Of a DNA stretch of 56,501 nucleotides, positions 1,748 through 39,202 are shown one piece after another; position 1 is the first letter of the stretch, and each line of letters opens with the position of its first letter. The stretch is from NCBI GenBank assembly GCA_902569105.1, contig CACFTE010000007.1, positions 1 through 56,501 on the forward strand, read 5' to 3'. Under the pieces are notes generated by a model. The model saw only the letters and a program-made list of their open reading frames with translations, ran no database searches and was not told where the DNA came from. The position numbers were made by a program, and so were the translations under genes. This stretch comes from an uncultured Pelagibacteraceae bacterium (lineage in GTDB: Bacteria > Pseudomonadota > Alphaproteobacteria > Pelagibacterales > Pelagibacteraceae).

Positions 1748-3237
1748 AAATTACTAGCTGCATAAATTTTTAAATTAGAATTAAATAAATCAATTAAACT
1801 TTCAACAGAAGCTGAAGTTGAACTAAGTAAAGGATCTGGATAAAAACCAAAAAAAATTGATACAAAAGCCAATATAGATAGAATAATCATTTCAGAATTG
1901 TTTAAATCTACTAACTTATTTACCTCCATATTTTTAATTTCCCCAAAAACTACTCTTCTATAGAGCCATAACATATAAGCCGCTCCTAGAATAACTCCTA
2001 AACTTGCAATTGTTGCAACTAGAAAGTTAACCTTAAAAGTTCCAATTAAAATTAAAAATTCTCCTATAAATCCAGTTGTACCAGGCAATCCTAAAGATCC
2101 TAATGTAAAAATCATTAAGACAACTGCATATCTTGGCATTACTGATACGATCCCACCATATTTACTAATTTCTCTTGTGTGCATTCTTTCGTAAATAACA
2201 CCAACACATAAAAAAAGTGCAGCGGAAATTATTCCATGACTTATCATTTGGAATATACTTCCTTCTATTCCTTGTGGTGTCATTGTGAAAATCCCCATTG
2301 TAACAAAACCCATGTGCGCAACAGAAGAGTATGCAATTAGTTTTTTCATATCTTCCTGCATTAAGGCTACTAGAGATGTATAAATTATCGCTACTAGACT
2401 TAGTGTAAAAACAAGAGGCACAAAATATTCTGAAGCTACAGGGAATAAACCTACTGAAAATCTAATAAATCCATAACCCGCCATTTTTAGAAGTATAGCA
2501 GCTAACAAAACTGAACCAGCAGTTGGTGCTTCTACATGGGCATCTGGTAGCCATGTGTGAACTGGCCACATTGGAGTTTTTACAGCAAAAGAACTAAAAA
2601 AAGCTAACCAAAGTAAATTTTGATATTTAGTATTGATGCCAATTTCATATAACTCAATTACATCAGTTGTTCCTGTCATCCAGTATATAGAAATTATTGC
2701 GACCAACATAAGCACAGTGCCCAATAAAGTGTATAAGAAAAATTTAAAAGCTGAATAAACTCTTCTCTCCCCACCCCAAATTCCTATTATTAAAAACATA
2801 GGTATCAGCCCTGCTTCAAAAAATAAGTAAAAAATTACTAAATCAAGTGAACAAAAAACTCCAATCATCATTGTTTCCATAATCAGAATTGCTACAAGAA
2901 AATCTTTTAGTCTAGTTTTGATTGTAGAATTTACCGAGATAACACAGAGTGAAGTTATAAATGTAGTTAAAATAATAAATAGTATAGAAATCCCATCTAT
3001 TCCAACTTTATAATTTATAAAATTTACAATCCATTCTCTCTCTTCAACAAATTGGAAATCAGAACTATTTTTATCAAATGCAAACCATAGGTATAGTGAT
3101 AATATGAAATTAGCTAAAGAAACAAATAATGAGATATATTTAGCAGAATTATAATTTGAAGAAGATCTTCCAAACAAAATAAACATTGCTCCTATTGTAG
3201 GTAGTACAATAAGTGATGATAAAATTGGAAAGCTCAT
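1744..3237 (-). CDS. nuoM: NADH-quinone oxidoreductase subunit M
   Basis: This 497 aa antiporter-like membrane subunit of complex I contributes one proton-translocating half channel. The diagnostic HTWLPDAHVEAPTAGSVLLA motif lies near residues 225-245 and is followed by LLKMAGYGFIRF with the channel lysine. A conserved glutamate sits in the LFFEAGLIPMFLIIGIWGG segment near residue 140. The stop overlaps the nuoN start by 4 bases, and the start shares one base with the nuoL stop, giving translational coupling along the operon. Confidence 0.97.
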   Translation of the reverse strand: MSFPILSSLIVLPTIGAMFILFGRSSSNYNSAKYISLFVSLANFILSLYLWFAFDKNSSDFQFVEEREWIVNFINYKVGIDGISILFIILTTFITSLCVISVNSTIKTRLKDFLVAILIMETMMIGVFCSLDLVIFYLFFEAGLIPMFLIIGIWGGERRVYSAFKFFLYTLLGTVLMLVAIISIYWMTGTTDVIELYEIGINTKYQNLLWLAFFSSFAVKTPMWPVHTWLPDAHVEAPTAGSVLLAAILLKMAGYGFIRFSVGLFPVASEYFVPLVFTLSLVAIIYTSLVALMQEDMKKLIAYSSVAHMGFVTMGIFTMTPQGIEGSIFQMISHGIISAALFLCVGVIYERMHTREISKYGGIVSVMPRYAVVLMIFTLGSLGLPGTTGFIGEFLILIGTFKVNFLVATIASLGVILGAAYMLWLYRRVVFGEIKNMEVNKLVDLNNSEMIILSILAFVSIFFGFYPDPLLSSTSASVESLIDLFNSNLKIYAASNL

Positions 3238-5463: not shown

Positions 5464-6088
5464 CTATTTTTACACCTTTATTTTTTGGAACATTAACAAC
5501 TTCAACTCCATCTGCTCTTTCTCTAGAAATTTGCTTTATATAACTTTGTTTTTTTAATCCAGCTCTCTGTCTAAATGTTAATACTATAGCACCTATCATA
5601 GCTACTAATAGGATCATTCCAGAGATCTGAAATAAATGTATATAATCTGTATACAAAACATTTCCTAAAGAATGTGTGTTAGTGGTAGTGTTAGAGATTA
5701 GAATAGTAGATGAGTTTAATAAATCTGGTTTATACTTCCAGCCACCTATAACTATAATTAACTCAAAAAAAATAATTAAACTTACTAATAACCCAGCGGG
5801 TATATGAGAACTGCTTTTTGAAGATGCAAACCACTGATTTTTTTGCTGGGCTACATTTAACATCATAACTACAAATAAAAATAGGACTGCTACAGCTCCC
5901 ACATAAACAATTAACATAATCATTCCTAGAAATTCTGCACCAATCATAATGAATAGACAAGAGATGCTAATAAAATCAAGAATTAAAAAAAAAACTGAGT
6001 GAACGGTGTTTCTTGCGGCTGTTACCATAATTGCAGATACTATTGCAATGAATGCAAACAAATAAAAGAATACAGCGTGAGCTATCAT
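5456..6088 (-). CDS. nuoJ: NADH-quinone oxidoreductase subunit J
   Basis: This is a five-helix membrane subunit of complex I (210 aa). The conserved [20 protein letters not shown] segment (pi-bulge helix 3) is present near residues 56-75. The hydrophilic C-terminus carries basic residues typical of alphaproteobacterial NuoJ. It lies between nuoI and nuoK as in other nuo operons and overlaps nuoK by 8 bases. Confidence 0.97.
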
Positions 6089-6094
6089 TAGTTA

Positions 6095-6580
6095 TTACCT
6101 ATATGGGTTATCAGCTTTTATGTTAGCAGCGAGTATATTTTCCCACCTGTCTCCATTTTCTAAAAGTTTTTCTTTACTGTAATAAAGTTCTTCTCTTGTT
6201 TCTGTTGCAAATTCAAAGTTAGGTCCTTGAACAATTGCATCTACAGGACACGATTCTTCACAAAGACCACAATAAATACATTTTAACATATCAATGTCAT
6301 ATCTTGTAGTCTTTCTACTACCATCTTCTCTTTCTGAAGACTCAATTGTAATTGCTTGAGCAGGACAAACAGCTTCACATAATTTACAAGCAATACATCT
6401 TTCTTCTCCATTAGGATATCTTCTTAAAGCATGTTCACCCCTAGCTCTTGGACTAACCTGGCCTTTTTCAAATGGATAATTTATAGTTTTTTTTGATTTA
6501 AAAACTTCTTTAATTGCAATTAGTAGACCTTTAACAAAATCTAACATAAATATTGTTTTTAATAGTCTTCCTAATTTCAT
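6095..6580 (-). CDS. nuoI: NADH-quinone oxidoreductase subunit I (2x[4Fe-4S] ferredoxin-type)
   Basis: This peripheral-arm subunit carries clusters N6a and N6b that feed electrons toward N2 and quinone. Two canonical CxxCxxCxxxCP motifs are present, [16 protein letters not shown] near residue 61 and [16 protein letters not shown] near residue 100. At 161 aa it matches the alphaproteobacterial/mitochondrial type, including the conserved C-terminal ENGDRWE segment. It overlaps the nuoH stop by 4 bases. Confidence 0.97.
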
Positions 6581-7578
6581 AATTGAACCGGTAATAAGTT
6601 AAAATAAAGTAAATATCCTGCAGTTATTACAACCCAAATTATTGATAAAGGTAAAAATATCTTCCATCCAAGTTTCATTAATTGGTCATATCTATATCGT
6701 GGGACAATAGCTTTTACTAAAGCAAAAAGTATAAATAAAAATAATATTTTAAATATTAACCAAAATGGAGCTGGAATAAATGACAGAACTTCGATTTCTA
6801 ATGGTGCAAGCCATCCACCCAAAAATAATATAGAACCCATTGCACACATTAACAAAATATTTGCATACTCTCCTAACCAAAACATTGCATACATCATTCC
6901 TGAATATTCAGTTTGGTATCCAGCAACTAATTCAGCTTCAGCCTCTGGTAAATCAAAAGGAGGTCTATTTGTTTCAGCTAAAGCAGAAATAAAAAAAATT
7001 ACAAACATGGGAAATAGTGGCACTACAAACCACATATTTTTTTGTGCTAAAACAATATCGTTTAAATTTAAAGATCCTACACATAACAATACATTAATAA
7101 TAATAACTCCAATTGAAACCTCGTATGATACCATTTGAGCTGCTGATCTTATTGCTCCTAAAAATGGATATTTTGAGTTTGAAGCCCACCCGCCCATTAT
7201 TATTCCATAAACACCTAGTGAAGAAACGGCAAACAAATAAAGTATACCAACATTAATATCAGCTAATACAAGATTTTCACCAAATGGTATTACAGCCCAA
7301 GCTATAAGAGCCAAAGTCATTGTTGTTATTGGAGCTAGAATGAAAATTACTTTGTTTGAACTGGCTGGAATAATTATTTCTTTAAAAATATATTTTAATG
7401 CATCTGCTAAAGATTGAAGTAAACCAAACGGTCCAACAACATTGGGGCCTCTTCTTTTTTGTACAAAAGCCCAAACCCTTCTATCTAACCAAACTATCAT
7501 GGCAACAGTAACTAAAACTGGGATTAAAAGAAATAATATCTTGTATACCTCGTTGAATAAAATAGAAAAACTATTCAT
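6577..7578 (-). CDS. nuoH: NADH-quinone oxidoreductase subunit H
   Basis: This 333 aa membrane subunit with about eight helices forms the quinone-binding chamber at the junction of the two arms. Landmarks are [20 protein letters not shown] near residue 30 and [20 protein letters not shown] near residue 205 with the acidic loop, followed by [15 protein letters not shown]. It is separated from the nuoG stop by two bases and overlaps nuoI by four. Confidence 0.97.
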
Positions 7579-9608: not shown

Positions 9609-10932
9609 TTTCTTTTTCCAACAAATGTTGATCTACTAAATAAGGATTTTTTTGTCCTGTATTTATTAATGGGTTGAAATTATTTCTTTCCTCAATTTCT
9701 TTTTTAAAATGTCTTAACAAACCTTGAACTGGCCACGATGATCCTTCTCCAAATGCACAAATTGTGTGACCTTCAATTTGTTTAGTAACATCCATTAGCA
9801 TATCAACTTCTTCTCTTGATGCTTCACCTTTGGCCATTCTTTCTAACATTCTCCACATCCATCCAGATCCTTCTCTGCAAGGTGTACATTGACCACAACT
9901 TTCATGTTTATAAAATCGAGCAATTCTCGCCATACATTTAATAATATCTTGATCATTATTAATTACGACTATTCCAGCAGTTCCTAGTCCTGTTTTGTTT
10001 TCTACACAAGCATCAAAATCCATTTTTATTGTATCGCAAATATTTTTTGGTAGTAACGGCATTGAAGAACCTCCAGGTATAACTGCTTTAAGGTTATCCC
10101 AGCCACCAACAACTCCACCTGCATGTTTTTCTATTAAATCCTTTAATGGAACTCCCATTTCCTCTTCAACATTACATGGATTATTTACATTTCCAGAAAT
10201 GCAATAGATTTTAGTCCCAGTATTTTTCTCTCTACCTAGTGAAGAAAACCATTTTGCACCTCGTCTTAAAATCGATGGAATCACAGAAATTGTTTCAACA
10301 TTGTTGATTATTGTGGGGCATCCATATAATCCTATTATAGCTGGAAACGGTGGTTTAAGTCTTGGTTGACCCTTTTTTCCCTCTAGACTTTCTAATAACG
10401 CTGTTTCTTCTCCACAAATATATGCACCAGCTCCGTAGTGAATATAAATGTCTAAATCCCAACCTGTACCAGCTGAGTTATTTCCTATTAATCCTGAGTC
10501 GTAAGCTTCATCAATTGCTTTTTGAAGTTTTGCACCTTCACTAATATATTCGCCTCTTATATAAATATAACAAACATGTGCATTTACGGCAAAAGATGAA
10601 ATTAAACATCCTTCAATTAATTTATGTGGCTCAAATCTTAAAATATCACGATCTTTACATGTTCCGGGTTCTGACTCATCAGCGTTAATAACTAAATAAT
10701 GTGGTCGAGCTCCTACTTCTTTAGGTGCAAACGACCATTTTAATCCAGTTGGAAATCCTGCACCACCTCTGCCTCTTAGTTGAGAATCTTTAATTTCATT
10801 AATTATCCAATCTCTACCTTTTTGACAAATATCTTTTGTATTAGCCCAATCACCTCTTTCCTTCGCAGATTTAAGATCTGAACCAAAATCATTGTAAAGA
10901 TTTACAAAAATTCTATCTTTATCCTCAAGCAT
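9601..10932 (-). CDS. nuoF: NADH-quinone oxidoreductase subunit F (NADH/FMN-binding)
   Basis: This 443 aa subunit oxidises NADH via FMN and passes electrons to cluster N3. Visible motifs are [15 protein letters not shown] near residue 55 (NADH/FMN), the glycine-rich [15 protein letters not shown] near residue 172, and the N3 ligands [15 protein letters not shown] near residue 347 with [16 protein letters not shown] near residue 390. It overlaps both neighbours by 8 bases. Confidence 0.97.
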
Positions 10933-37984: not shown

Positions 37985-38059
37985 ATAATATTGATATTTA
38001 AACGACAATGCTATATCCATTCGATAAGTCAATATAATTAAGGAAAAGGATTGAACATT

Positions 38060-38143
38060 ATGGGTTACCCAAAAAAGCATAGAGGTCGAAGAAAAATGGG
38101 CTCAAAGAAAAGAAGAGCAAGAAAAAAAAATAAGAAAAAATAA
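38060..38143 (+). CDS. 27-residue hyperbasic peptide, probably ribosome- or RNA-associated
   Basis: The frame encodes MGYPKKHRGRRKMGS followed by twelve residues that are nearly all Lys or Arg, then TAA. Sixteen or more of 27 residues are basic and none is acidic. AAGGAAAAGGA ends 9 bases before the ATG, an unusually good ribosome site for this genome. It is divergent from metC and 18 bases upstream of a membrane protein gene on the same strand. Size and composition resemble tiny ribosomal proteins such as THX/bS22 or COX24-like basic peptides, but I cannot assign it to a family. Confidence 0.65.
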   Translation: MGYPKKHRGRRKMGSKKRRARKKNKKK

Positions 38144-38161: not shown

Positions 38162-39202
38162 ATGAAAAATAGTATTCGAAGACTTCGAATAATAGCATTA
38201 CTTTTATTTATAACGCCTGCTATAGCTCTTGTTGGATCTCTTTTCTTAAACAATTACTTAGCAACATTCAAATTTACTCACGAATTTAATTATAATTTTA
38301 CAAAAAATCTTCCAGGTAATTCAATTAGCATTCACTGTTCAGATGAAAATAAATATTGTTCAGAAATAAATTTTGAAAAATTCACTAGTTTAAATCAGTG
38401 TTATACAAATATTATAATACTCAATTATTCTGATGAAGATGGAAATATCATTGAAATCAACAACAATCAAATTATAAAAAATTTTGAAAAAAAAATATTT
38501 ATAAATTATATATTGTCAGATCAAAAAGATCCTGACTGTATCACAAACTCAAAAAGTATAAGGCTTTACAACATACTTCCAATTTTTTATGAAAGTATTT
38601 ATCAGTTAAAAATAAATGAAAAAACTAGCTTAGGTACCAGCTATCCTGTAAATCCTTTTTTTTATGGGGAAACATCCATTAGTAATATTGTAAAAAGATT
38701 TCCTTTAAATTTTTTCTTTAAACCTCTTTTATATCTGAGTGTGATATTTATGTTATTTTATTGGATTTATTATAATAAAGTTATAAAAAATTTAATTAAT
38801 TCATCAAAAAATTATTATTTCTTCTATTTTGGAATTCTTTCTGCAATATTTTTACTTCTTCATGTGTTTTTTTTAGGATGGAGTTTTGAAAATGAATTTT
38901 TATCAAAATTGAGAAGAACGTTTGTAGTTTTCTTTATTTTATTTGAAGTACTTGCGCAAGCTTTTTTAATAAAGAAAATTTTCTCTATCAAAGATCAGAT
39001 TAGCAATTACTTAAATTCAATTATTGTTTATTCAAAACTGTTATTTGTTTTTATAATTTGTTTTACTACAATTCTGATTTTATTAATTTTAATATTTTAT
39101 AATTTAAGTCCAGAAATCGACTATATTTTAGAATGGAACTATTTTTTAATACTTTTATTTTTTTATTTTTTGTCTTTTTTGATGTGGAGAAAAGTTAATT
39201 AG
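38162..39202 (+). CDS. Integral membrane protein of unknown function
   Basis: A 346 aa protein with an N-terminal hydrophobic anchor (residues 9-30). A polar region of about 150 residues follows, with four cysteines ([23 protein letters not shown]), presumably outside the membrane. Five to six helices fill the C-terminal half (about 180-345). No family is recognised. Codons are extremely AT-rich, and the composition resembles fast-evolving SAR11 hypotheticals. It lies 18 bases after the 27-residue basic peptide gene and its end overlaps the convergent mnmA end by 8 bases. Confidence 0.75.

Follow-up and report, generated by a model that had tools for sequence, protein, structure and literature searches.

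The locus raises the question of whether a frame of 27 codons within the window (the whole stretch of SAR11 DNA that was analyzed, 56,501 nucleotides) is a gene at all and, if it is, what so small a product might do. The start codon, the frame, the absence of acidic residues from MGYPKKHRGRRKMGSKKRRARKKNKKK, and the 9-base spacing to the Shine-Dalgarno-like AAGGAAAAGGA (Table 1) are as the initial annotation had described them. The gene is standalone: its 5' neighbor is a minus-strand ORF of 424 amino acids (aa) that in most relatives begins upstream of the peptide gene, and on its 3' side follow a plus-strand 346-aa ORF and a minus-strand ORF read as mnmA. Conservation of the 346-aa ORF was poor, at 34-36% in other genera, and several SAR11 lineages lacked it, with mnmA coming directly after the peptide gene. 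Just 5' of the peptide gene, the 15-bp block GACAATGCTATATCC was invariant in 12 of 12 aligned loci of the same genus, with a TTGATA usually 17 bases (15 in the window) 5' of its TATATC; a consensus scan of the window found no promoter. Block and TTGATA together constitute a putative promoter of the gene's own, from which a short dedicated transcript would give the peptide. The strong ribosome site claimed for the locus held only in part: a Shine-Dalgarno-like word stood at 161 of 200 intact loci, and none was present in the printed copies from two other SAR11 genera (L063 and L068) or from families f25, f32, and f142, so that the word is not among the gene's conserved features.

Table 1. Coordinates and sequences of the peptide gene, its surroundings, its relatives in other families, and selected phage loci
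Feature	Location	Strand	Detail
Peptide gene, 27 codons plus TAA	window 38060..38143	+	ATG at 38060, stop ends at 38143; product MGYPKKHRGRRKMGSKKRRARKKNKKK
Shine-Dalgarno-like word	window 38040..38050	+	AAGGAAAAGGA; 9 bases 5' of the ATG
15-bp block, putative -10 region	window 38004..38018	+	GACAATGCTATATCC
424-aa ORF		-	start at 38080 in the mechanical ORF list
346-aa ORF	window 38162-39202	+	
Peptide, family f32			MGYPKKHRGRRKIGSRKRRAKRRAKKK
Peptide, family f25			MGYPKKHRGRRKRGSTWRRNKRRNKKK
Peptide, family f142			MGYPKKHRGRRKRGSKYRRNKKRQKKK
Phage L236, peptide gene	7039-7125		18 bp 3' of tRNA-Ser, same strand
Phage L236, GOLLD RNA	9666-10138	-	Rfam RF02032
Phage L268, end of peptide ORF	1930		
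Phage L268, stretch with peptide gene and tmRNA	1838-2260		tmRNA permuted, alphaproteobacterial type, directly 3' of the peptide gene; called from 1942 (ARAGORN) or 1927 (Rfam)
Phage L234, GroES gene	5984-6391		reverse-complement coordinates; 5' of the capsid gene

The SAR11 27-residue peptide gene is real and under purifying selection. Across the 200 intact 27-codon loci, 165 distinct DNA alleles encoded only 20 proteins; mean pS was 0.60 and mean pN 0.08 (pN/pS of about 0.13), and codon position 3 varied about fivefold relative to positions 1 and 2. Start, frame, and length were kept throughout these loci, so the conservation of start and frame in close relatives, to which the initial annotation had tied its proposal, extends across the Pelagibacteraceae. 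The intact product had 27 residues in every copy read, from the Pelagibacteraceae and from other alphaproteobacterial families alike, and residues 3-12 (YPKKHRGRRK) did not vary among alphaproteobacterial copies. A very short, A-rich, low-complexity frame is what chance might also produce, yet the pattern of synonymous substitution refutes such an origin and the same residues were written with different codons in high-GC Gemmatimonadota, which leaves a chance ORF with virtually no probability.

Not all bacteria related to the source of the window share the peptide. A protein search of 61 relatives recovered it from 32 of 37 genomes in the genus to which the window belongs and from none of the 24 genomes of f2, a sister family in the same order; an order-wide sample of 297 genomes gave 219 matches. 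Among 13 Pelagibacteraceae genomes without a match that were checked, 12 also lacked mnmA and the 13th had mnmA at a contig end, so that these look like cases of a missing locus and not of gene loss. Where the locus is present in SAR11 the peptide is universal, at one copy per genome. A profile search of 385 alphaproteobacteria extended the clear membership to three more families (f32, f25, and f142; Table 1), and members in Gemmatimonadota, first seen in a scan of genome contigs, were found by profile search in 6 of 298 genomes; a seventh match there (L230) lay within a longer frame and was set aside as chance. A sample of 398 Pseudomonadota genomes yielded matches in two only, both Pelagibacteraceae, and the peptide is thus rare outside a few lineages. 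The genes that flank it differ from lineage to lineage, which bears on the idea that translation of the frame, as a leader peptide or a short regulatory ORF, controls the next gene: shortness and a dedicated upstream region kept within the genus would suit such an element, but the next gene varies by lineage and is sometimes convergent, and selection preserves residues rather than a run of codons or an RNA structure. With synteny lost while the protein is conserved, we rejected this very improbable reading.

What the product does has to be judged largely by likeness to known systems. Searches of Pfam, NCBIfam, PHROGs, and PDB sequences with the peptide returned no match, the motif was not found in print by literature search, and the gene is apparently unnamed. 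A frozen N-terminal motif, a drifting basic C terminus, a standalone gene, and phage copies beside translation RNA genes together fit best with a ribosomal protein that threads into rRNA. We therefore regard the peptide as rather likely to be a small structural rRNA-binding protein of the ribosome, or one very tightly associated with it, in SAR11 and some other bacteria. The N-terminal half, which does not vary (YPKKHRGRRK.GS), would probably be threaded into a pocket of the rRNA; the C-terminal Lys/Arg segment does vary, is probably helical, and would pack along rRNA. We infer both the pocket and the ribosomal subunit to which the peptide would belong; our favored, though somewhat doubtful, candidate for that pocket is one of the bS22/mS38/eL41 kind, lying between h27, h44, and h45. 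Counting against a ribosomal role is the lack of a match to any ribosomal protein model searched, and the patchy spread (absence from f2 and from nearly all other Pseudomonadota and Gemmatimonadota) means that this would not be a core ribosomal protein. The proposal of an unannotated ribosomal-type protein gene in SAR11 therefore stands firmly as to the gene, while its role in translation is one that we infer.

Two families of minute ribosomal proteins invite comparison. Like the peptide, bTHX (Thermus Thx, plastid bTHXc, and plant mitochondrial bTHXm) is 27 aa long and hyperbasic with a Lys-rich end, but the peptide is without the GDxxTxRGK signature. Neither host nor phage forms matched the THX models TIGR04560, NF011339, and PF17070 at E values up to 10, whereas the Thermus Thx control matched both TIGR04560 and PF17070; moreover, three Gemmatimonadota genomes (G705, G722, and G897) encoded the peptide together with a separate THX over the cut-off. 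The THX-like identity first suggested for the locus was rejected on these two grounds. The second family, bS22 of Actinobacteria, Bacteroidetes, and Borrelia, resembles the peptide in being a helix of about 25-33 aa with 55-65% Lys/Arg, encoded by a standalone gene that annotation often misses, and mitochondrial mS38/COX24/AURKAIP1 and eukaryotic eL41 occupy the same pocket (PMC10085706, PMC10618245). In Borrelia, bS22 (61% Lys/Arg) had escaped annotation, and mass spectrometry identified every ribosomal protein except this one (PMC10618245). Unlike the peptide, bS22 does not begin with YPKKHRGRRK. The models PF08213 and NF047430 (bS22/COX24_C/mS38) gave no match, a weak test given that a Bacteroidetes-type bS22 query matches no Pfam or NCBIfam model either. 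In hhalign and profile alignments with shuffles against bS22, COX24, mS38, THX, eL41, bL34, and bL36, scores fell within those of the shuffles, as did most positive controls: the Flavobacterium (Fjo) and actinobacterial bS22, both found in ribosomes, reached a z of only 0.65-1.75 against each other. For a peptide this short, sequence comparison is powerless on bS22/mS38 membership. The Thermus Thx and mycobacterial bS22 queries were exact to PDB chains and the Bacteroidetes bS22 near-identical, the Flavobacterium and Borrelia bS22 sequences were taken from PDB search output, and human mS38 and eL41 and Escherichia coli bL34 and bL36 served as comparison rows only. MAFFT set RRK[MIV]G[S] against the RHKVAT block of bS22, and AlphaFold predicted a single helix for residues 6-32 of a 33-aa Gemmatimonadota relative, a generic form not specific to bS22. 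No bS22-type protein over the cut-off was found in any of 80 genomes, including those with the peptide, which makes mutual exclusivity with bS22 uninformative.

The phage copies are a new observation that the initial annotation did not foresee. Pattern scans of IMG/VR matched 38 contigs, of which 37 carried a free-standing copy of 27-42 codons; the match on the other contig (L304) lay inside a longer frame and was dismissed as chance. At least 12 phage lineages in IMG/VR have the peptide, this being the number into which the 37 contigs fall by sequence grouping. Their forms extend from the MGFPKKRRGRRKIGSKKRKNRKKNKKR of L302, which is exactly 27 aa long, to the MARQNKTHRGRRKVGSKKRRNRRRQRKKRR of L268, and MGYPKKHRGRRKRGSKYRRNKKRQK is common to phages L238, L244, and L246 and host family f142. 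These contigs are bona fide viral genomes, and a host homologue exists: L234, for example, has major capsid and GroES genes and L240 an integrase, and the capsid proteins nearest to that of L234 come from phages that include the pelagiphages HTVC023P and HTVC027P. The peptide was not found in the cultured HTVC023P, a capsid relative of the L234 group, and tblastn and blastn against named phages and plasmids gave no real match, with low-complexity filtering probably masking the query. A GroES gene 5' of the capsid gene is common to the L234 group and the related cultured pelagiphages HTVC023P and HTVC027P (loci L234 and L258-L261).

Several phage copies lie among RNA genes of translation. On the 96.9-kb contig L236 the peptide gene closely follows a tRNA-Ser (Table 1); the surrounding stretch encodes 10 tRNAs, one tmRNA, and a GOLLD RNA, and a predicted RNA ligase is close by. 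In L248, which is related to L236, the peptide is surrounded by 13 tRNAs and a tmRNA; in L265 the peptide lies between tRNA-Ser and tRNA-Met; and on the 328-kb contig L268 it abuts a permuted tmRNA, whose alphaproteobacterial type suggests an alphaproteobacterial host. As a raw count, three independent lineages (L236 with L248, L265, and L268) thus have a tRNA or tmRNA gene no more than about 600 bp from the peptide, with direct abutment in two of the three. The 9.6 kb that contain the L302 copy also include four tRNAs, all at least 4.6 kb from it. Counting against a ribosomal role, 21 of the 37 contigs, which make up the two most numerous phage groups, have the peptide beside head or replication genes, and in the stretches examined the only tRNA in these groups was a distant one in L235. 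The copies among tRNA and tmRNA genes point to a ribosome or translation component that has been missed.

Phages are known to carry ribosomal proteins, and viral bS21 and bL12 enter ribosomes (Mizuno et al., PMC6375957). Virus-encoded ribosomal proteins of this kind (bS21, bL12, and others; PMC6375957) resemble the peptide in that a host-like gene occurs in several unrelated phages, and some phage copies of the peptide likewise lie within translation-gene clusters. Those proteins were found by Pfam ribosomal profiles, whereas the peptide family has no profile, so a survey based on Pfam profiles could not see its phage copies. Such copies, some of them beside tRNA or tmRNA genes, may be swapped into host ribosomes as bS21 and bL12 are. 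On balance we lean, by a little, toward the view that SAR11 ribosomes hold an undescribed 27-residue ribosomal protein, common to a few other bacteria, with which phages customize the host ribosome through versions of their own.

The same phage loci would also accommodate a peptide linked to translation without being a stoichiometric subunit, namely, a rescue, hibernation, or assembly factor (like ArfA, RMF, or an rRNA chaperone) that works together with tmRNA or acts on ribosomes that are stalled or immature; in its favor are the tmRNA genes near the copies of L268, L236, and L248 and a size and charge suited to RNA binding. We consider this unlikely, as the frozen N-terminal motif better fits a fixed rRNA site, no tmRNA was found in the examined stretch of the other phage copies, and the known rescue and hibernation factors are much longer than 27 aa. 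Condensation of nucleic acid, whether protamine-like or in nucleoid or virion DNA packaging common to phages and hosts, is suggested by the hyperbasic composition and by the L234 group, in which the peptide lies between structural genes. That function appears rather improbable because a binder that relies on charge only would not be expected to keep YPKKHRGRRK unchanged across phyla, because SAR11 keeps a single, universal copy wherever the locus is present, and because the peptide accompanies tRNA or tmRNA genes in three phage lineages.

Since SAR11 are among the most abundant bacteria on Earth, a ribosomal subunit of this kind, if true, would mean that the parts list of their ribosome has so far been incomplete and that phages carry a ribosomal protein invisible to profile-based viral surveys. 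Trypsin would be expected to leave essentially only MGYPK detectable, so ordinary proteomics would miss the peptide; it gives cryo-EM and Ribo-seq studies something precise and testable to look for and, in viruses, is a new marker of translation manipulation. A divergent phage subfamily (L270-L275; MAKVGLAKHRGRRKLGRKKRRKRSAKWRNKKTGR) has only the HRGRRK.G core in common with the other forms and could connect the peptide with further families of small basic proteins; by eye, its peptide follows a PAPS-reductase-like gene.
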